Source: Streptomyces sp. NBC_01142 (lineage in GTDB: Bacteria > Actinomycetota > Actinomycetes > Streptomycetales > Streptomycetaceae). From it: DNA of 64,000 bases. The stretch is taken from positions 1,054,001 to 1,118,000 of the forward strand of contig NZ_JAPEOR010000003.1 of NCBI RefSeq assembly GCF_026341125.1. Reading direction: 5' to 3'. The notes below the pieces were generated by a model. The model made no database searches, had not been told where the DNA came from, and saw nothing but the letters and a program-made list of their open reading frames with translations. Position 1 is the stretch's first letter. Each line of letters starts with the position of its first letter. Both the position numbers and the translations under genes were made by a program. Positions 35,493-54,574 of this stretch are shown in pieces.

Positions 35493-36176
35493 TCATCGCA
35501 GGGCTGTGGCGAGCTCCGGGAGGTAGCCGGCCAGGAAACCCAGGTCGGTGGCGCGGGCGAAGTTCGGGTGGCTGCGGTGCTGGGTGAGGCGCGCCAGTGC
35601 TTTGCGCCCGAAGTAGTCGCCGTCGTCCGCGCCGGTGGGTGGGGTGGGCTCGCCGGCCCAGGCGGGGTCGGCCGCCACAAGGGGCACGCAGCGCTCGAAC
35701 AGCTGGTGGCAGGTCTGCAATCCGCGGCGCAGCACCACGTGGTACGGCTCGTCCGGGCCGATCGGATAGGAATCGGCGGCCAGAGTGGGTCCGGTGTCGA
35801 TGCCCTCATCCACCTGGTGGAGCGTCGCGGCGAACTTCCGCTCGCCGTGCAGCATCGCGTACACCAGGGCTACTTCGGGCAGCCCCCGATAGGCGGGCAG
35901 CGGGCCGTGGTGGATGTTGAGGATGCGCAGTCCGGTGGACAGCACCGGTGCGCGGAAGATCATCCGGTTGTTGAGCGACCAGACGACGCCATCCGTGCCG
36001 GCGGCGACCAGCTCGGCGGCTACGGAGTTGACGTCCGCGACGGCACGATAGGGAACGTCGGCCCGAGCAGCCTCTGCGGCCGGAGCAGGGCCGCAGACCA
36101 GGTCCACGGCCAGGTTGTGGTCGAGTGTGTGCTGTACGGCGCGCCAGAGCAGCGCGCCCTCTCCGACGAAGATCAC
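35493..36176 (-). CDS. lstF: LstF-like formyltransferase
   Basis: A 227-residue formyltransferase domain protein. The catalytic Asn-His-Asp set of the family is visible: NIHHGPLPAYRG (Asn 87, His 89) and VDEGIDTGPTL (Asp 127). It should transfer formyl from 10-formyl-tetrahydrofolate to the free amine of the aminoacyl ester, giving the N-formyl group of lipstatin-type beta-lactones. It lacks a tRNA-binding C-terminal domain, unlike Met-tRNA formyltransferase. The start is GTG 36176, overlapping the stop of the NRPS gene as GTGA. It is the last gene of the six-gene operon. Confidence 0.85.
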   Translation of the reverse strand: MIFVGEGALLWRAVQHTLDHNLAVDLVCGPAPAAEAARADVPYRAVADVNSVAAELVAAGTDGVVWSLNNRMIFRAPVLSTGLRILNIHHGPLPAYRGLPEVALVYAMLHGERKFAATLHQVDEGIDTGPTLAADSYPIGPDEPYHVVLRRGLQTCHQLFERCVPLVAADPAWAGEPTPPTGADDGDYFGRKALARLTQHRSHPNFARATDLGFLAGYLPELATALR

Positions 36177-45274: not shown

Positions 45275-46546
45275 ATGTCCGCCCATCAGCTATCGGACCT
45301 CATACGTTTCGTCCGTCACAACTCACCCTTCTACCAAGACCTTTACGCGTCCCTGCCGCCGGACGCCGACCGCCTCACCGATCTCCCGGTCGTGGACCAG
45401 CAGGAGTTCTGGTCGGCCAACACCCTGCACGACAACCGCGTCCTGACCGGCCCTCTCAGCGAGGCGACCGTCTACAAGACCGGCGGCACCACCGGCGCCC
45501 CCAAGTTCTCCGTCTACACCCGCGACGAATGGCGCACCTTCGTGACCGCCTTCGGCCAGGGCCTGTTGGACACGGGGCTGCGCCCGGGGCACCGCGTCGC
45601 CGACCTCTTCTACGCGGGCGAGCTCTACGCCAGCTTCCTGTTCATCCTCGACTCGCTCGCCCACGCCCCGGTCGACAACGTCCGGCTGCCCATCGGCGGC
45701 GCCGCGCCGCTGGAGTCGACGGTCCCCACCCTGCAGGACTTCGCCGCCGAGGTCGTGGCCGGCACGCCCACCACCCTGTGCCGGCTGGCCGAGCACCTGA
45801 TCTCCTCCGGCGTCCGGCTCGACGCCGTGGAGCTGGTCCTGTTCGGCGGCGAGGCGCTCTTCGCAGACCAGCGGCGCCTGCTGGCCGCCGCATTCCCCAA
45901 CGCCGAGGCCCGCTCCGTCGGTTACGCCAGCGTCGACGCCGGCCTGCTCGGCCGCCCCGTGCCCGGCTCCGACCCCCGCGTGCACCGCGCCTTCACCCCG
46001 CACTCCGTCGTCGAGATCCTCGACGACACCACTGACGAGCCCGTCACCGAACCCGGACGGCCCGGACGGGTCGTGGTGACCAGCCTGTTCCGCCGCCTCA
46101 TGCCCGTCATCCGCTACCCCGCGGGCGACCGCGCCGAGTGGACCGACAACCGGGCCCGGCACTTCCGCATCCTCGGCCGCGCCGAGGAAGGCGTACGCGT
46201 GGGGCCCGTGTCCCTGTACTCCCAGGACGCGCAGGACGCCGTGGCCGCGGCGGACACCGCCGGCCGTGTCGTCGGCATGCAGCTGGTCGTCCGCCGCTGG
46301 GACGGCCGCGACGGTCTGGTGCTGCGGCTGGCCACCGCTCCGGGCGACGACGACCCGGCCGGCCTGGAGCCGCTCGCCAAGGGGGTCGTCACGGAACTGG
46401 AGACGGCCCGGCCGCTGTATCCGGACAGCGTGCGCGCCGGTTTCGTCCACCCGCTGTCCGTGGAATGGGCGCGCCACCGCGACCTCGCCGTCAACCCGCG
46501 CTCGGGCAAGCTCGTCCGCGTCCTCGACGAGAGGCCGACCGCATGA
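45275..46546 (+). CDS. PaaK-like adenylate-forming ligase
   Basis: A 423-residue protein of the phenylacetate-CoA ligase (PaaK) family. VYKTGGTTGAPKFSVYTRDE is the nucleotide-binding loop, followed by the helix region LFYAGELYASFLFI, ELVLFGGEALFADQRR and VIRYPAGDRAEW; the C-terminal NPRSGKLVRVLDERP supplies the mobile Lys. It should activate a carboxylic acid as acyl-AMP and pass it to CoA or to a carrier thiol; the substrate is unknown. It is the first gene of a five-gene operon, all overlapping by 4 bases, and its ATGA stop/start overlap leads into the MFS gene. Confidence 0.82.
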   Translation: MSAHQLSDLIRFVRHNSPFYQDLYASLPPDADRLTDLPVVDQQEFWSANTLHDNRVLTGPLSEATVYKTGGTTGAPKFSVYTRDEWRTFVTAFGQGLLDTGLRPGHRVADLFYAGELYASFLFILDSLAHAPVDNVRLPIGGAAPLESTVPTLQDFAAEVVAGTPTTLCRLAEHLISSGVRLDAVELVLFGGEALFADQRRLLAAAFPNAEARSVGYASVDAGLLGRPVPGSDPRVHRAFTPHSVVEILDDTTDEPVTEPGRPGRVVVTSLFRRLMPVIRYPAGDRAEWTDNRARHFRILGRAEEGVRVGPVSLYSQDAQDAVAAADTAGRVVGMQLVVRRWDGRDGLVLRLATAPGDDDPAGLEPLAKGVVTELETARPLYPDSVRAGFVHPLSVEWARHRDLAVNPRSGKLVRVLDERPTA

Positions 46547-47877
46547 GCGCCACTCCCGACACCCGTGCCGACGAGGGCCGTCGCCTGCCGCTCGTCCTGC
46601 GCAACCGCGCCTTCGGCGCCGTCTGGCTGGGCCAGGTCCTGACCCAGGCCGCGGTCCGCATGTTCCAGGTCGGCGTCTCCTGGTGGCTGGTCGCCTACGC
46701 CGTCGACGACGGGCGCGGACTGGCTTCCGGGCTGTTCATGGCCGTCAGCTCGCTGCCCGCCGTGGCCCTCGCTCCCGTCGTGGCCCGCGCCGTCGCCCGG
46801 ATCGCCCACCGCTCCGTCCTGCGGGCGGCCGCCGCGCTGGCGGGCGCCGCCGCTGCCGCGCTGGCCGTCTGGGCCTGGTCGAGCGACCTGCCGCTGGCGG
46901 CCGCCTACGGCGCGACCCTCGCCCTGGCCGCGTGCCAGGCCTTCTTCGACCCCTGCCTGACCACGTCGGTGCCCGAACTCGTTGACGACGAGGACATCGA
47001 GACGGCCACGGGATTCGAGCTGTCCACCCAGTCCCTGGCCGGCCTCGGCGGGGCCCTGCTGGGGGCCCTGATCGTCGACCGGGCCGGCGTGGCCGGGCTC
47101 GCCGCCGGGTGCGCGGCCGCCTACCTCGCGGCCGCGCTGCTCATCGCCGGTGTGCGCTTCCGTACCGCAGCCGCGCACGGCGAAAACGACGGCGGCGCCG
47201 GTGAGGCGGCAACACCCCGGAAGCGCACGCTCCGCAGCATCCTCCGGGAACTGCCGTACGTCCGCCGCATCCTGGTCTGCTTCGCCGCGGCCAACCTCTT
47301 CACCACCGCCGTCTTCGTTGTCATTCCGCTCTACACCCGGAACGTGCTGGGTGACGGCGGCGGCACCGTGGCCCTGCTGGAGGCGTCCCTGGGCGCCGGC
47401 ACGCTCATCGGCTCCTCCACCGGCACCCGGGTGCCGGGCCGGCCCACCGTCACCGGCGCGTACTGCCTGGGTCTGATGGCCCTCGCCCTGGCCCTCCCGG
47501 GCCTGGTCGCGCAGCGGCTGGTCATCTCCTGCTGCCTCGCCGTGGCCGGCTGGTGCGTGGGGGTCATCGGGGTCCGCTTCGTGGCCCTGTTCCAGCGGCT
47601 GGTGCCCACCGCCGACAAGCCCGGTTTCTTCGCCGTGATGCAGGCGGTGCTGGGGGCCACGTTCCCGGTGGCCTCGCTGCTGTTCGGACTCGCCGGGGAC
47701 CACCTCTCGGCGCAGACACTGTGCCTGGTGCAGGCCGCCGGCCTGGTGCCCGCCGCCTGCGCGCTGGCCCTGCTGGGTGCCCGTACCCCCGAGCCGGCCG
47801 CGGACCGGCCGACCGCCGAGGCCGCGACCGGGCCTGCGGCCGACCGTACTCCCGAACCTGTCGGAGGCGAGCGGTGA
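46543..47877 (+). CDS. MFS exporter
   Basis: A 444-residue major facilitator of the cytoplasmic membrane with the usual two six-helix halves: LRNRAFGAVWLGQVLTQAAV, FQVGVSWWLVAYAV, the central loop rich in charged residues (RTAAAHGENDGGAGE), then SILRELPYVRRILVCFAAAN and TADKPGFFAVMQAVLGATFP. Family MFS_3 (enterobactin-exporter-like) fits best. It probably exports the product of this operon or confers self-resistance. It overlaps both neighbours (ATGA before, GTGA after). Confidence 0.82.
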   Translation: MSATPDTRADEGRRLPLVLRNRAFGAVWLGQVLTQAAVRMFQVGVSWWLVAYAVDDGRGLASGLFMAVSSLPAVALAPVVARAVARIAHRSVLRAAAALAGAAAAALAVWAWSSDLPLAAAYGATLALAACQAFFDPCLTTSVPELVDDEDIETATGFELSTQSLAGLGGALLGALIVDRAGVAGLAAGCAAAYLAAALLIAGVRFRTAAAHGENDGGAGEAATPRKRTLRSILRELPYVRRILVCFAAANLFTTAVFVVIPLYTRNVLGDGGGTVALLEASLGAGTLIGSSTGTRVPGRPTVTGAYCLGLMALALALPGLVAQRLVISCCLAVAGWCVGVIGVRFVALFQRLVPTADKPGFFAVMQAVLGATFPVASLLFGLAGDHLSAQTLCLVQAAGLVPAACALALLGARTPEPAADRPTAEAATGPAADRTPEPVGGER

Positions 47878-49010
47878 ACGCACGGATCGCCCCGGCTGCC
47901 GACGCGGACATCGCCGAACTGCGCCAGCTCTACTACGCCGTCTACGGGCCCCATTACCCCGCCGCGCTCGGCACCGACCCCGCCGAGATGGCCCGGCTCA
48001 TCCAGGACCCGCACTCCCTCTGGCTCGTCGCCCGCTGCCCGGACACCGGAGCGCTGGCCGCGTCGGCGGCCATCCACGGCGAGCCGGGCAGCCGGATCGG
48101 GCGCCTGGAAGGCCTCGCTGTGCACCCGGACCACAGGTCCGATGGACTGGCCGCCACGCTGACCGGGGCCCTGTGCGCCGGGATGCTGGACACCGGGCGG
48201 CTGGACTCGGTGTACGCCACGGTCCGCACCGTCAGCGCCGGCCCGCAGCGCGTCGTCGCGCGCAACGGCTTCCGCCCGCTGGGCATCCTGCCCAACGCGG
48301 TAGATCTCAGCAGCCGAGAGAGCCTCGCCCTCTACGCGCGTCACTCCGCCGGTGTGCTGGACCGCCGCGTCCCCGTGCCCGAGGCGCCCGCCCCACTGCT
48401 CCCGCTTCTGCGGACAGTTGAGAGCTGCCTGGGCATCAGCTACCAAGGCACCCGCGCCACCGACCCGCTCCCGGCGGCCGCGCACGGGCCGGCCGAGCAG
48501 CTGGAGATGATCGAGGCTCCGGCCTTCGTCCGCCGCCGCCTCCGCGAGCGCTTCCCCGACGCGGGCGGCTGGTTCTACCCGCTGCACACACCCAACGTGC
48601 TGCTCACCCCCGACGACGGGCGGTTCGAGGTCTACGCGTACCTCAACCGCACCGGACGGTACTGCTCGCTGCTGACCGCCCACCCCGACCCCGCCGCTGC
48701 CGCCGCCTATCTCGAACCCGTCACCCAGGCCCTGACCCGGGCCGGCGCGGGCTATGTGGAGGCCCTGGTGCCGCTGGCGCACCACGGAGCCCTCTCGGCC
48801 TTCCTGGCCCAGGGCTTCGTCGCCGGCGCGCTCTACCCGGCGATGCGCGCCGACGGCGACGGCTTCCACGACTACGTCGTCCTCTCCCGCTCCACCGAGC
48901 AGATCGACTTCCGCGGCGTGGTCGTCGAACCGCCCCTCCAGCCCTACCTGGACTGCTACCTGTCCGCCTGGGCGTCGACCTACCTGCCCACACTCGAGGT
49001 TGCCTCATGA
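47874..49010 (+). CDS. Two-part GNAT acetyltransferase-like protein
   Basis: A 378-residue protein. The first half has a clear GNAT fold: IAPAADADIAELRQLYYAVY, GRLEGLAVHPDHRSDGLAAT (acetyl-CoA-binding region) and RVVARNGFRPLGILPN. The second half (from about residue 180) resembles a second, diverged GNAT-like domain (RFEVYAYLNRTGRYCSLLTA, VEALVPLAHHGALSAFLAQG). Related proteins occur next to LuxE/LuxC-type genes. It could acylate an amine, possibly that of a substrate or of the product. Start GTG 47874 overlaps the MFS stop. Confidence 0.75.
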   Translation: MNARIAPAADADIAELRQLYYAVYGPHYPAALGTDPAEMARLIQDPHSLWLVARCPDTGALAASAAIHGEPGSRIGRLEGLAVHPDHRSDGLAATLTGALCAGMLDTGRLDSVYATVRTVSAGPQRVVARNGFRPLGILPNAVDLSSRESLALYARHSAGVLDRRVPVPEAPAPLLPLLRTVESCLGISYQGTRATDPLPAAAHGPAEQLEMIEAPAFVRRRLRERFPDAGGWFYPLHTPNVLLTPDDGRFEVYAYLNRTGRYCSLLTAHPDPAAAAAYLEPVTQALTRAGAGYVEALVPLAHHGALSAFLAQGFVAGALYPAMRADGDGFHDYVVLSRSTEQIDFRGVVVEPPLQPYLDCYLSAWASTYLPTLEVAS

Positions 49011-50155
49011 ACCCCCATCTCGCCCCGGTCGGCGTCCCCGACCCCTCCCTCCTGCCGCACGTGCAGCAACTGTGCGACCTGGCCGACCCGTACACCTGCG
49101 GGCCCGCCGAGGACGAACTGTTCGCCGCGGCCATGGCGGAGACCAACGCCTGGCACGCAGAACGCTCCCCGTTCTTCCGCTCGTTGTACGAAGCCACAGA
49201 GCCCGCGCAGCCGTACCGCGCCCCGCTGGTGCACGCCAACTTCTTCAAGCGCCACGAGGTGCTGTCCATCCCGCGCGACGAGGTCGACCTGCACCTGACC
49301 TCCTCCGGCACCACCGGCCAGAAGTCGCAGATGTTCTTCGACAACTGGACCATCCGCTCCGCCCAGCGCATGGTCGCCCGGATCTTCGAGCGCAACGGCT
49401 GGATCACCCCCGAACAGGAGGTCAACTACCTCCTCTACAGCTACGAGCCGGCCCCCGCCCTCAATCTCGGCACCTCCTTCACCGACAACTACCTCTGCGA
49501 CTTCGCCCCGGCCCGCACCGTCGAGTACGCGCTGCGCAACACCGGCAACGACCACGAGTTCGACCCCTTCGGCTGCGTCGCCGCGCTGCGCCGCTTCGAG
49601 CGGGACGACGCCCCGGTCCGCATCCTGGGCTTTCCCGCCTTCCTCTTCTTCACCCTGGAGCGGATGAGCGCCATGGGGCTGCCGCCGCTGGGCCTGCCCG
49701 AGGGCTCGCTGGTCGTCCTCGGCGGCGGCTGGAAGGGCCACGCCGACCGGCGCATCGGCAAGGAGGAGCTGTACGCCCGCGTCACCGAGCAGCTCGGCAT
49801 CCCCGGCGAGCGCATCCGTGACACCTTCGGATCCGTCGAGCACTGCATCCCGTACATCGAATGCGACCACCACCGCCTGCACGCCCCCGTCTGGTCCCGG
49901 GTCGCCATCCGCTCCACCCGCACCCTCGAACCCCTGCCGTACGGCGAGATCGGCTACCTGCACCTCGTCTCGCCCTACATCACCTCCGTACCGGCGCAGA
50001 GCGTCCTCATGGGCGACCTCGCCTCCCTGCACCCCGGCGACGCGTGCGGATGCGAGCTGACCACCGACTGGTTCACCGTCCACGGCCGCGCCGGGGTGAG
50101 TCGCAACCGCAGCTGCGCGGTGGCCGCCGCCGAACTGATGAAGGGAATGTCGTGA
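49007..50155 (+). CDS. LuxE-type acyl-protein synthetase
   Basis: A 382-residue member of the LuxE family: LTSSGTTGQKSQMFFDNW (nucleotide-binding loop), VRILGFPAFLFFTLERM, LVVLGGGWKGHADRRIGKEE, and RDTFGSVEHCIPYIECDHHR, with C-terminal VLMGDLASLHPGDACGCE. In luminous bacteria LuxE activates a fatty acid with ATP and passes the acyl group to LuxC for reduction. The neighbouring gene is LuxC-like, so the pair should form the same type of acid reductase. It overlaps its neighbours by 4 bases (ATGA, GTGA). Confidence 0.88.
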   Translation: MNPHLAPVGVPDPSLLPHVQQLCDLADPYTCGPAEDELFAAAMAETNAWHAERSPFFRSLYEATEPAQPYRAPLVHANFFKRHEVLSIPRDEVDLHLTSSGTTGQKSQMFFDNWTIRSAQRMVARIFERNGWITPEQEVNYLLYSYEPAPALNLGTSFTDNYLCDFAPARTVEYALRNTGNDHEFDPFGCVAALRRFERDDAPVRILGFPAFLFFTLERMSAMGLPPLGLPEGSLVVLGGGWKGHADRRIGKEELYARVTEQLGIPGERIRDTFGSVEHCIPYIECDHHRLHAPVWSRVAIRSTRTLEPLPYGEIGYLHLVSPYITSVPAQSVLMGDLASLHPGDACGCELTTDWFTVHGRAGVSRNRSCAVAAAELMKGMS

Positions 50156-52680
50156 CCGTGCACCACCCCGCCGAAACCCACGAACACCACTACTGGCAGG
50201 GCGCCTTCATCGGCGACGAGGAGGCAGGGCGCCGTCTGGCCGGCCTGTCCACCGCAGTCGAGGCCGCCCTCGGCACCCCGCTGGAGACCGAGACCGTCCT
50301 GGCCGCCTGCGACGCCCTGGCCACCGTCCTGCGCGCCCCGGAGCACCCGGTGCGCACCCGGCTCGCCCGCCACCTGCCCGAGGGCGAGGACCCGGCCGTC
50401 CTCACCGAACTCGCCGCCCATCTCAGCCGGACCGAGCTCACCCGCAAGCTCCGTCGCGAACTCGGCGGCGCCGCACCGGGCCGGCTGAACCGCCCCGACG
50501 CACGGGAGACCGTCTACGAGGCATGGGCCCCCGTGGGCCTGGTCGCCCACATCGCCCCGGGCAACGCAGCCACCGTCGCCCCGCTCAGCATCGTCGAGGG
50601 CCTGCTCGCCGGCAACGTCAACATCCTCAAGACCAGCAGTGGCGACACCCTGCTCACCCAGCATCTGCTGGCCGAGCTCGCCGCCCTGGACCCCACCGGC
50701 GCCATCGCCGACCGCGTCGTCGTGCTGCGCTTTTCCTCCTCCCGGCAGGAGTGGCTGCGCCTGATGTGCGCACCCGCCGACGCCATCGCCGTCTGGGGCG
50801 GCGAGAGCGCCGTCGAAGGGGTCGCCGCCCATGTCCCGCCCGGCTGCCGCCTGGTGGAGTGGGGCCACCGCATCTCCTTCGCCTACCTCACCCGCGACGC
50901 CTGGCAGGACCCGGACACGCTCGGCGCCCTGGCAGCCGACGTGTGCCTGTACGAGCAACAGGCCTGCTCCAGCCCCCAGGTGGTCTACCTCGACACCGAG
51001 GACGAGCGGGACGTCTTCGCCTTCGCCGAGCGTTTCGCCGGCGTGCTCGCCACCCGGCCCGCCGCCGCGCCCCCGCCCGACGGCCATGATCTCGACCCCG
51101 CCGAACAGGCCGAGCTGACCACCACCGAGCTGATCGCCCGACTGGAGGAACACCTCGACCTGACCCGGGTGTTCGCCGCCCCCGACGGTTCCTGGCGCGT
51201 CATGGCCGACACCAGGCCCGCCCTCACCGCCTCCCCCCTGCACCGCAGCGTGTGGATCAAGCCGCTGCCGCGCAAGAAACTGCTCGGCGCACTGCGGCCC
51301 ATGCGCCGCTACCTGCAGACCGCGGGCATCGCCGGCAGTCGCATCGACATCGCCGAACTCTCCCGCACCGTCCTGGCCGCAGGCGTCACCCGCATCACGC
51401 CCATCGGCGCCATGCTCGCCAGCTACCCCGGCGAGCCCCACGACGGCGTCTACGCGCTCCAGCGCTACAGCCGCCGCGTGGCGGTCCAGACCGACGCCCG
51501 CTTTGCCACCACCGCCTGCCTGGACGACCTGGCCCGCCCGGTCGTCCTCCCGCCGCCCGGCGGGCCGCTGCTCGGCAAGGAAGAAGTCCAGGAACTCAAC
51601 CGCCACGTCGCACGAGCCGATGCCGAGCTGTACTTCCGCAGCGGCGGCAGCACCGGCGCCCCGGCACTGTCCCTCTTCAGCTACGACGACTACGACACCC
51701 AGATGCACGCCGCCGCCCGCGGTCTGCTCGCCGCCGGCTACGACCCGGTGGCGGACCGCACGGCCAACCTCTTCTACTGCGGGGGCATGTACGGCAGCTT
51801 CATCAGTTTCTTCTCCATCCTTGAGCGTCTCGGCGGCGTCCAACTGCCCCTGTCCGCCGGCCCCGACCACCGGGCCACGGCCCAGGCTCTGATCGCCCAC
51901 CAGGCGGACACTCTCTTCGGAATGCCCTCCTACCTGTGGCAGCTGCTGCACGAGGAGAAGGACTCTCTGCGCGCATACGGCGGCCTCCGGAAGATCTTCT
52001 ACGGCGGCGAGCACTTCACCGCCGAACAGCAGCGCACCCTGAAGGACACCTTCGGCATCGAGGTCGTCCGCTCCATCACCTACGGCAGCACCGACCTGGG
52101 CCCGCTCGGCTACCAGTGCGCCGAGAGCACCGGCGGCGTCCACCACCTCCACGCCGACCTGCACACGATGGAGATCCTCGACATCACCTCCGACAGGCCG
52201 GTAGCGCCGGGGGAGACCGGCCGCCTGGTCTTCGCCACGCACGCCCGGCGCGGCCAGAACCTCGGCCGCTACGTCATCGGCGACCTCGGCCGGATCGTCC
52301 CCGGCCGCTGCCCCTGCGGCAGCCACGCCCCCCGCTTCGAACTGCGCGGCAGGACCGGGGACGTGATGCGCGTGGCCACGTATCTGCTCAATCACCGCCG
52401 CTTCGTGGCGATAGCCGAGGAGCAGGGCCGCTACACCGGCGAACTCCAGATCCTGCTCACCGCTCCCGACACCCGCGAACACCTCACCGTCCGCGTCGAA
52501 CGCTCCGGCACACCGGCCCCCGAGCGGCTGCGGGAGGCCTTCCTGGCCGGCTACCCCGAGCTGCGCGCGGCAGTGGAGGAGCGGCTGCTCGACCTCACGA
52601 TCGAGGCGGTGGACGGCTCGTCCCTGGACCGCAGCCCGACCAGCGGCAAGCTGCGCTCAGTGGTGGACGCCCGCCGATAG
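50152..52680 (+). CDS. LuxC acyl reductase fused to a PaaK-like ligase
   Basis: An 842-residue two-part protein. Residues 1-450 are LuxC-like: WAPVGLVAHIAPGNAATVAP, LAGNVNILKTSSGDTLL (nucleotide-binding region), and YEQQACSSPQVVYLD with the active Cys 272. Residues about 470-842 are a second PaaK-like adenylating domain: RSGGSTGAPALSLFS (496-510), FYCGGMYGSFISFF, RKIFYGGEHFTAEQQ and SITYGSTDLGPLGYQ; the end RSPTSGKLRSVVDAR holds the mobile Lys. The fusion should link carboxylate activation directly to NADPH reduction to an aldehyde. It is the last gene of the operon. Confidence 0.87.
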   Translation: MTVHHPAETHEHHYWQGAFIGDEEAGRRLAGLSTAVEAALGTPLETETVLAACDALATVLRAPEHPVRTRLARHLPEGEDPAVLTELAAHLSRTELTRKLRRELGGAAPGRLNRPDARETVYEAWAPVGLVAHIAPGNAATVAPLSIVEGLLAGNVNILKTSSGDTLLTQHLLAELAALDPTGAIADRVVVLRFSSSRQEWLRLMCAPADAIAVWGGESAVEGVAAHVPPGCRLVEWGHRISFAYLTRDAWQDPDTLGALAADVCLYEQQACSSPQVVYLDTEDERDVFAFAERFAGVLATRPAAAPPPDGHDLDPAEQAELTTTELIARLEEHLDLTRVFAAPDGSWRVMADTRPALTASPLHRSVWIKPLPRKKLLGALRPMRRYLQTAGIAGSRIDIAELSRTVLAAGVTRITPIGAMLASYPGEPHDGVYALQRYSRRVAVQTDARFATTACLDDLARPVVLPPPGGPLLGKEEVQELNRHVARADAELYFRSGGSTGAPALSLFSYDDYDTQMHAAARGLLAAGYDPVADRTANLFYCGGMYGSFISFFSILERLGGVQLPLSAGPDHRATAQALIAHQADTLFGMPSYLWQLLHEEKDSLRAYGGLRKIFYGGEHFTAEQQRTLKDTFGIEVVRSITYGSTDLGPLGYQCAESTGGVHHLHADLHTMEILDITSDRPVAPGETGRLVFATHARRGQNLGRYVIGDLGRIVPGRCPCGSHAPRFELRGRTGDVMRVATYLLNHRRFVAIAEEQGRYTGELQILLTAPDTREHLTVRVERSGTPAPERLREAFLAGYPELRAAVEERLLDLTIEAVDGSSLDRSPTSGKLRSVVDARR

Positions 52681-53082: not shown

Positions 53083-53762
53083 GGGGCGGGCGGGGTGCTC
53101 GGACTCGGGCTGTCGGGAGCGGCGTTCGCGGGAGCTCTGCTGACCTTCGCCCTGGTGTGGGCGGTGGCCCGGCGGGGCGGCGGGTTCGCGCCGCTGCGGC
53201 TGGTGCTGGCCGGGGTGGCGATCGGGCATTCCTGTCCGGGTTCACCAGCTATCTGGTGCTCCAGGCCGGGGACGAGCAGCAGACGCACAGCGTCCTGTTC
53301 TGGCTCATGGGCAGCCTGAGCGGGGCGAGTTGGCCGCTACTGGCCGTCCCCGCAGTGACGGTTCCGGCCGCTCTGCTGCTGCTCCAGGCACGGGCCCGGG
53401 GACTCAACGCCCTGCTGATGGGCGACGAGACGGCGGCCGGACTCGGCATCGACGTCGTACGACTGCGCCGAGAGCTGTTCCTGGTGACCAGCGTGCTGAC
53501 CGGCGTCCTGGTGGCCGTCTCCGGCGCCATCGCCTTCGTCGGCCTGATGGTCCCGCACGCCTGCCGCCTGCTCGTCGGCGGCGACCACCGCCGCCTGCTG
53601 CCGGTCTCCGCGCTGTTCGGCGCGCTGCTCGTGGTGGTGGTCGACATCGTGTGCCGTACCGCCATGGACACGCAGGAACTGCCGGTCGGTGTGGTCACCT
53701 CGCTGATCGGCGCTCCGGCGTTGCTGTATCTGCTGGACCGGCGGCTGGGGAACGGAAGTTGA
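53083..53762 (+). pseudogene. FecCD-type iron-siderophore permease, truncated and frameshifted
   Basis: One frame carries LGLGLSGAAFAGALLTFALV and LRLVLAGVAIGH, then at about 53228 the text continues in the next frame with LSGFTSYLVLQAGDEQQTHS, VLFWLMGSLSGASWPLL, LGIDVVRLRRELFLVTSVLT, FVGLMVPHACRLLVGGDHRR and the C-terminal ELPVGVVTSLIGAPALLYLL. This is the BtuC/FecCD fold without its first 100 or so residues. Its stop overlaps the TTG start of the ATPase gene. Confidence 0.75.
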
Positions 53763-54574
53763 GGATCGACATCGAAGACCTGCACGTCGCGTACGGTGGC
53801 CGTACGGTCGTGGCGGGGGCGCATCTGCTCGCGGCCGAGGGCGAGATCACGGGCCTGGTCGGGCCGAACGGCAGCGGCAAGTCCACACTCCTGCGCACGG
53901 TCTACCGGCATCTGCGACCCATCACGGGCCGAGTGCTGCTGTCCGGCACCGACCTTCGCGAGCTCACCCCCGTTCAGACGGCTCGCCACGTGGCCCCACT
54001 GCCGCAGGAGCGGGGCGGCGACTTCGAGCTGACCGTGCGCGAGGTCGTCGCGATGGGCCGCACCCCCTACAAGCGGGCGTTCACGGGGGAGGACGCGACC
54101 GGCCGCGACACGATCGCGCGGGCCCTCATCGAGGTCGGCATGGACGGCCGGGCCAACCGCCGGTTCACGGAGCTGTCCGGCGGTGAACGCCAACGCGTCC
54201 TGCTGGCCCGCGCCTTCGCCCAGAACCCGGACGTCCTGGTCCTGGACGAGCCGACCAACCACCTCGACGTACGACACCAGGTGGAGTTGCTCGCCCTGCT
54301 GCGCGCCCGGCGCCGCACGACCCTGGTGTCGTTGCACGACCTCAACGCGGCCGCCTCCGTCTGCGACCGGCTGCACGTTCTGCACGGTGGCACCGTGGTT
54401 GCCTCCGGCCCGCCGCGGCAGGTGCTCACCCCTGCCCTGCTGGCCGAGGTGTTCGGCGTGCGCGCAGCAGTGGTGGACCACCCGCTGACCGGCGATCCGC
54501 TGATCGCCTTCGACCACCGGGCCCCGGCGGACGGGGTGGTGGGAGAGGACCTGGCCGCGGCGGCGGAAGCGTGA
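53759..54574 (+). CDS. FepC-type iron-siderophore ABC ATPase
   Basis: A 271-residue ABC ATPase of the FecE/FepC type: GLVGPNGSGKSTLLRTVYRH (Walker A), LPQERGGDFELTVREVVAMG (Q-loop), LSGGERQRVLLARAFAQNPD (signature) and VLVLDEPTNHLDVRHQ (Walker B). It would power ferric-siderophore uptake through a FecCD permease. The start is most likely TTG 53759, overlapping the permease stop by TTGA. Since the adjacent permease gene is broken, it may be an orphan serving another permease. Confidence 0.82.
   Translation: MRIDIEDLHVAYGGRTVVAGAHLLAAEGEITGLVGPNGSGKSTLLRTVYRHLRPITGRVLLSGTDLRELTPVQTARHVAPLPQERGGDFELTVREVVAMGRTPYKRAFTGEDATGRDTIARALIEVGMDGRANRRFTELSGGERQRVLLARAFAQNPDVLVLDEPTNHLDVRHQVELLALLRARRRTTLVSLHDLNAAASVCDRLHVLHGGTVVASGPPRQVLTPALLAEVFGVRAAVVDHPLTGDPLIAFDHRAPADGVVGEDLAAAAEA

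Follow-up and report, generated by a model that had tools for sequence, protein, structure and literature searches.

Gene content of the operon

The 64,000-nucleotide stretch of Streptomyces sp. NBC_01142 analysed here (contig NZ_JAPEOR010000003.1, positions 1,054,001 to 1,118,000; hereafter the window, in whose coordinates its features are given) carries at 45275-52680 on the plus strand an operon of five genes, each overlapping the next by 4 bases. In order, genes A to E encode a PaaK-like ligase, an MFS transporter, a tandem GNAT, a LuxE protein, and a LuxC-PaaK fusion. An earlier note on this DNA had described five genes overlapping by 4 bases and had named the families as PaaK-like, MFS, two-part GNAT, LuxE, and LuxC-PaaK; direct inspection bears out the layout, and domain searches the families. 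Very probably, this is a biosynthetic gene cluster of the leupeptin type and corresponds, in actinobacteria, to the leupABCD operon of gammaproteobacteria.

Gene A (45275..46546, plus strand, as are all features of the operon) encodes a stand-alone PaaK-like adenylate-forming ligase of 423 amino acids (Pfam AMP-binding, E=6e-8). It matches the NCBIfam PaaK-like models, in each case under the cut-off, and is proposed to be an amide-bond-forming ligase of the leupeptin-type pathway. The 444-residue MFS transporter of gene B (46543..47877; Pfam MFS_1, E=8e-21) is a putative exporter. Gene C (47874..49010) specifies a tandem GNAT of 378 residues, recognized by domain search and by a fold search that covered its domain 1, and would act as an acetyl/propionyl-CoA:Leu N-acyltransferase. 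Gene D (49007..50155) encodes a LuxE-type acyl-protein synthetase of 382 residues (PF04443, E=4e-24), the proposed equivalent of LeupA, which would activate the peptide acid and load it onto Cys370. Gene E (50152..52680), with 842 residues, joins a LuxC acyl reductase to a PaaK-like ligase (PF05893, E=1e-88; PF00501, E=2e-9) and is the proposed equivalent of LeupB. Its LuxC domain covers residues 45-441 (50284..51474; domain search and alignment to 7xc6_A) and its ligase domain approximately residues 487-842 (51610..52677; domain searches). No PP-binding or condensation domain was found in genes A-E by domain search at E<=0.01. In line with a remark in the earlier note on luxAB, the same genes hold no luciferase domain, in a search that covered the operon only. 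An ABC-transporter ATPase reading frame (53330-54574, plus strand) lies approximately 650 bases 3′ of the operon, outside the overlapping set, and no RNA family of Rfam was found in the window at gathering cut-offs.

Vibrio-type LuxE adenylates an acid, holds it as a thioester on a Cys residue, and relays it to LuxC for reduction. By analogy with that enzyme, Cys370 of gene D (codon 50114..50116), which is invariant in the LuxE alignment and kept in 51/51 loci, is predicted to carry the acyl group. For the LuxC domain, Cys272 of gene E (codon 50965..50967) is predicted to be the catalytic cysteine; it lines up with QQAC, the LuxC motif in 7xc6_A, and is likewise kept in 51/51 loci. Lys833, in the C-terminal SGK motif of the fused ligase, is conserved in all 49 loci aligned there, a count that does not cover L027 and L033 and from which an identity filter excluded alignments to the paralogous gene A. 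The corresponding SGK motif of gene A retains Lys412 in 47/47 loci where that gene aligned, and Gly91 of the gene C GNAT is kept in 50/50.

Kinship with leupABCD

The leupeptin operon leupABCD has been described in Klebsiella michiganensis, and also in Xenorhabdus and Photorhabdus (Li et al. 2020, Angew Chem, as cited in PMC8283571, PMC11480411, and PMC11212599; sources are given by PubMed Central number and cited for the excerpts available). A "Leupeptin" region type appears in antiSMASH output for Photorhabdus (PMC12542766). In K. michiganensis, leupAB serves as a marker, for which Table 1 of one study lists two primers, a fragment of 1,235 bp, and coordinates in CP011636.1 (PMC8283571). The reverse complement of primer leupB_r encodes EQLKDH, a peptide present in 66 of the 373 proteins searched; it begins at residue 47 (47-52) of the LuxC-PaaK fusion in 65 of these and at residue 23 in P0339, and the named proteins that contain it are from K. 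michiganensis or Klebsiella sp. Primer leupA_f encodes EDSDSQ in its third frame, found in a single one of the 373 proteins, the LuxE-type P0031 (residues 19-24). Frame 0 (MKIAIHN), for which an ATP-grasp gene was suspected, was rejected, as it gave no matching protein among those searched and the third frame fits.

With the lengths of the genes, the cluster start as published, and a one-base gap as in a related Salmonella operon, the leupA-leupB amplicon is predicted to be 1235 bp long with primer B at position 316620; both figures match the published ones exactly. Primer leupA_f (21 bases) is placed at 315405..315425; the table prints 315403..315425 (PMC8283571), and the printed start is taken to be off by two. 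Since the primer peptides and the spacing fit these proteins, leupA is identified as the LuxE gene and leupB as the LuxC-PaaK gene. Gene D is 53% identical to P0031, and gene E aligns almost end to end, at 39% identity, with the K. michiganensis protein P0271 that contains the leupB_r peptide. In Klebsiella, leupC and leupD have a combined room of 2293 bp, vs. 2221 bp for the PaaK-like and GNAT genes of the Salmonella operon.

The operon shares with leupABCD a LuxE-type leupA, a LuxC-PaaK leupB, and an adjacent transporter, and its proposed pathway shares separate AMP-dependent ligases and an N-acyl peptide aldehyde product. In leupABCD, however, LuxE and the fusion lead the operon, whereas the order in the window is PaaK-MFS-GNAT-LuxE-fusion, and the window proteins are 39-53% identical to the leup proteins. 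The earlier note could name no described pathway of precisely this composition and proposed an undescribed system. The first statement is contradicted by leupABCD, with leupA as LuxE and leupB as LuxC-PaaK; the second finds no support, as a Salmonella plasmid has the set without the MFS gene and the fusion is frequent in K. michiganensis.

Leup-type operons occur on conjugative Salmonella enterica plasmids (L044, 8623-14381; L045, 8623-13500). In plasmids CP054717 and CP053580 the LuxE, LuxC-PaaK, and PaaK genes stand consecutively. A GNAT is annotated in the CP054717 operon and none in CP053580. These operons differ from that of the window in lacking an MFS gene and in a smaller GNAT (294 vs. 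378 amino acids, the latter tandem). Gene A and the Salmonella PaaK-like neighbor share 39% identity, and gene C has a weak, partial match of 24% to the Salmonella GNAT. With the Salmonella fusion as query, most named proteins among the best 120 matches are from K. michiganensis. The Salmonella operon DNA found no match in the E. coli genomes searched, no LuxE-type relative was confirmed in viral_contigs, and a search of phages with a Xenorhabdus LuxE gave one record, at 31%.

Distribution in Streptomyces and reported leupeptin producers

A scan with gene E over one genome per species, returning close matches only, gave 39 loci, all from Streptomyces and 77-87% identical. The whole five-gene set, in the same order and strand, is present in 36 of the 39 loci, with one gene aligning in pieces in three of these (L006, L037, and L040). 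The remaining loci comprise L005, truncated by a contig end, and L008 and L010, which lack the MFS gene only. In a second sample, 46 of 392 Streptomyces genomes match gene E at E<=1e-100; 45 carry a full-length or near-full-length fusion, while the match in G003 is a relative with LuxC only. The two samples overlap in at least one genome (L005 is G309) and are not independent. The operon is also found in genome G388.

By identity to gene E, the Streptomyces fusions fall into subgroups of 75-87%, 63-66%, and 54-55%, with the first and third found together in two genomes (G300 and G168). All six loci examined from the middle subgroup have A-B-C-D-E. The three loci examined at 54-55% (L053, L054, and L055) contain B-C-D-E and no match to gene A; two of these three genomes, again G300 and G168, also have an 87% fusion, which in G300 stands in a full operon (L062). 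In a LuxC tree, the window groups with its own 75-87% subgroup and S. cattleya lies in a separate supported subgroup, with a long branch between actinobacterial and proteobacterial fusions and the deep branching unsettled. Two further Streptomyces loci (L060 and L061) have LuxE and LuxC only, approximately 50-55% identical to gene D and to the LuxC half of gene E. On a plasmid of S. europaeiscabiei (L046, 5198-11344), a LuxE-LuxC pair stands beside a DUF692 (MNIO) gene, with YcaO genes on the opposite strand; reduction of a peptide carboxylate in a locus resembling those for ribosomally synthesized and post-translationally modified peptides is possible there.

Leupeptins inhibit serine and cysteine proteases, and leupeptin is a peptide aldehyde in worldwide laboratory use. 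Its discovery in actinomycetes dates to 1969 (cited in PMC11212599; PMC10548850; PMC8546846), and relatives of the operon are present in a reported producer strain and in species linked to leupeptin or its breakdown product. S. cattleya DSM 46488 makes leupeptin, acetyl-Leu-Leu (Ac-Leu-Leu), and an analogue (PMC12235219), and its plasmid pSCAT (NC_016113.1; NRRL 8057 = DSM 46488) carries A-E in the same order at 56-75% identity. S. griseochromogenes DSM 40499 also makes leupeptins (PMC12235219). S. xanthophaeus no2, deleted for the phosphopantetheinyl transferase gene sxrX, produced Ac-Leu-Leu and propionyl-Leu-Leu as identified by mass spectrometry and nuclear magnetic resonance (PMC9769936). 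Ac-Leu-Leu was first isolated from S. erythrochromogenes and is considered a leupeptin degradation product (PMC9769936). S. lavendulae is a reported leupeptin producer (PMC8546846), and all three species (S. xanthophaeus, S. erythrochromogenes, and S. lavendulae) have fusions of the window's subgroup. A tentative leupeptin mass is reported for S. virginiae THA-960 (PMC13273461), and another S. virginiae strain carries the operon. Given the kinship with leupA and leupB and these occurrences, the operon is read as a known kind of pathway in a new genome.

Proposed pathway and its alternatives

The products would be tripeptide aldehydes with an N-acyl cap, and the leupeptins acetyl- and propionyl-Leu-Leu-argininal are the most likely ones. 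Biosynthesis would begin with the GNAT of gene C moving acetyl or propionyl from CoA onto leucine. Two PaaK-like ligases without carrier proteins, one encoded by gene A and one forming the C-terminal half of gene E, would then adenylate Ac-Leu and Ac-Leu-Leu, with the next amino acid joined each time, giving Ac-Leu-Leu-Arg. LuxE (gene D) may in turn adenylate the peptide acid and load it onto Cys370, from which the LuxC half of gene E would take the acyl group onto Cys272 and, using NAD(P)H, reduce it to the aldehyde, for export by the MFS transporter (gene B). We infer the substrates, the assignment of each ligase to its bond, and the product of the window strain, as well as the use of two ligases for two amide bonds; the acid reduced is most likely a peptide (Ac-Leu-Leu-Arg) and not a fatty acid. 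The earlier note's outline of acid activation, reduction to an aldehyde, acylation, and export fits what the relatives do. The lack of a PP-binding domain in the operon is in line with the account of leupeptin in Xenorhabdus bovienii, which credits discrete AMP-dependent ligases together with a reductase (PMC11212599).

Several points weigh against a leupeptin-type assignment. The link for the window strain consists of species- and strain-level correlations from other strains. The S. cattleya copy falls in the 64% subgroup, outside that of the window, and its gene-product link is co-occurrence in one strain. For S. xanthophaeus and S. virginiae, the producer strains differ from those whose genomes were examined, and deletion of a single phosphopantetheinyl transferase does not exclude a nonribosomal peptide synthetase (NRPS). 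Three more reported producers, S. roseus, S. exfoliatus, and S. griseus (PMC8546846), appear by name neither among the 120 matches listed in a further fusion search nor in the close-match scan. Leupeptin of one Streptomyces isolate has been assigned to an antipain NRPS cluster (PMC11212599), and another source, with reference to Maxson et al. 2016, counts leupeptin as one of the Streptomyces aldehydes made by NRPSs (PMC10548850). No excerpt of the open-access literature was found to tie Streptomyces leupeptin to these genes, and the primary paper (Li et al. 2020) may already mention actinobacteria. On the Klebsiella side, P0031 is assigned as the leupA protein from the primer and the spacing, and the combined length of leupC and leupD, taken to be a stand-alone PaaK-like ligase and a GNAT, would fit such a pair. 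The weak likeness of gene C to the Salmonella GNAT could mean another acyl group or acceptor.

NRPS clusters of the antipain, chymostatin, and MAPI type also yield peptide-aldehyde protease inhibitors (PMC11212599; PMC10548850), whereas genes A-E lack carrier and condensation domains. No NRPS is encoded among A-E; the one at 36173 (minus strand) sits in the neighboring lst-like operon described below, and the rest of the genome lay outside this search.

The alternative that survives best, though considered unlikely, is a pathway of the same type making a different peptide aldehyde, with other residues, another acyl cap, or a derived pyrazinone. It draws on the three fusion subgroups and their coexistence in two genomes, on the absence of gene A from the 54-55% loci, and on the Val, Lys, and propionyl analogues found besides leupeptin in the Streptomyces of one study taken together (PMC12235219). 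Against it, the window shares its subgroup with S. xanthophaeus, S. lavendulae, and S. erythrochromogenes, all three connected with leupeptin or Ac-Leu-Leu.

A fatty-acid or aryl-acid reductase pathway, leading to a lipid or aromatic aldehyde in the manner of luxCDE or EhpF, is highly improbable. PaaK-like EhpF acts with a LuxC-type partner in phenazine modification, and gene A matches it weakly (E of approximately 6e-4); distant matches also connect the operon to the Vibrio-type LuxC and LuxE of 7xc6, with the LuxC Cys motif aligned to that of this luxCDE fatty acid reductase. The LuxE and LuxC proteins are nonetheless far nearer to leupA- and leupB-type proteins (53% and 39%) than to bioluminescence enzymes. 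They score hundreds of bits below the NCBIfam equivalog cut-offs for bioluminescence, which the Klebsiella proteins miss too. The operon further differs from luxCDE in holding a GNAT and two ligases and in the fusion of LuxC to PaaK. With distant matches only, this option was set aside, as were flagellin-modification loci with luxC- and luxE-like genes, since no glycosylation gene is found in A-E.

The genes divergent from the operon, 956 bases away on the minus strand (44318 down to approximately 35493), comprise two KAS III-like genes, an OleC-like ligase, a 3beta-HSD-like gene, an NRPS with A and PP-binding domains only (36173), and a formyltransferase, a set that we take, from lst gene content, to be a lipstatin-like beta-lactone operon (lstA-F-like). 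Its lstA-, lstB-, and lstC-like genes are 56, 42, and 52% identical to those of S. toxytricini (L063). Genes resembling lstA occur in 18 of the 392 Streptomyces genomes, 10 of which also have a leup-type match, a co-occurrence above expectation (Fisher p=4e-6, kinship not corrected). Together with the proximity of the two sets, this is what speaks for the least probable alternative, in which the operon belongs to the lipstatin-like cluster and makes or modifies a beta-lactone building block; against it, none of the 39 operon loci has an lst match in the flanking DNA examined, the nine other genomes with both sets have them on different contigs (eight genomes) or 6.5 Mb apart (G054), and no fusion match reaches 1e-100 in the five genomes whose lst copies are closest (87-92%). 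Adjacency was seen only in the window's genome, and synteny disfavors a joint pathway, with draft contig ends leaving linkage open in some genomes, chiefly G309, where the operon is cut at the contig start.

A broader and tentative idea is that LuxE and LuxC form a portable module for converting carboxylates to aldehydes, which actinobacteria couple to zero, one, or two PaaK-like ligases. Two ligases, as in the window, would yield tripeptide aldehydes with an N-acyl group; operons with only the fused ligase (L053-L055) would yield N-acyl dipeptide aldehydes, products for which genes are not yet assigned; and LuxE-LuxC alone (L060, L061, and L046) would reduce a different acid, which might be a ribosomal peptide. 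Peptide length could then be predicted from the number of ligases. The variant without gene A (L053-L055) allows the idea of two ligases for two bonds to be tested, and the operon itself would let one probe directly how a peptide aldehyde is assembled by ligases without carriers and a LuxE-LuxC relay. For Streptomyces, the operon provides a gene-level candidate for leupeptin in 45 of 392 sampled genomes. Some copies lie on linear plasmids, which would fit a 1978 report that leupeptin production in S. roseus is passed by conjugation (cited in PMC8546846).

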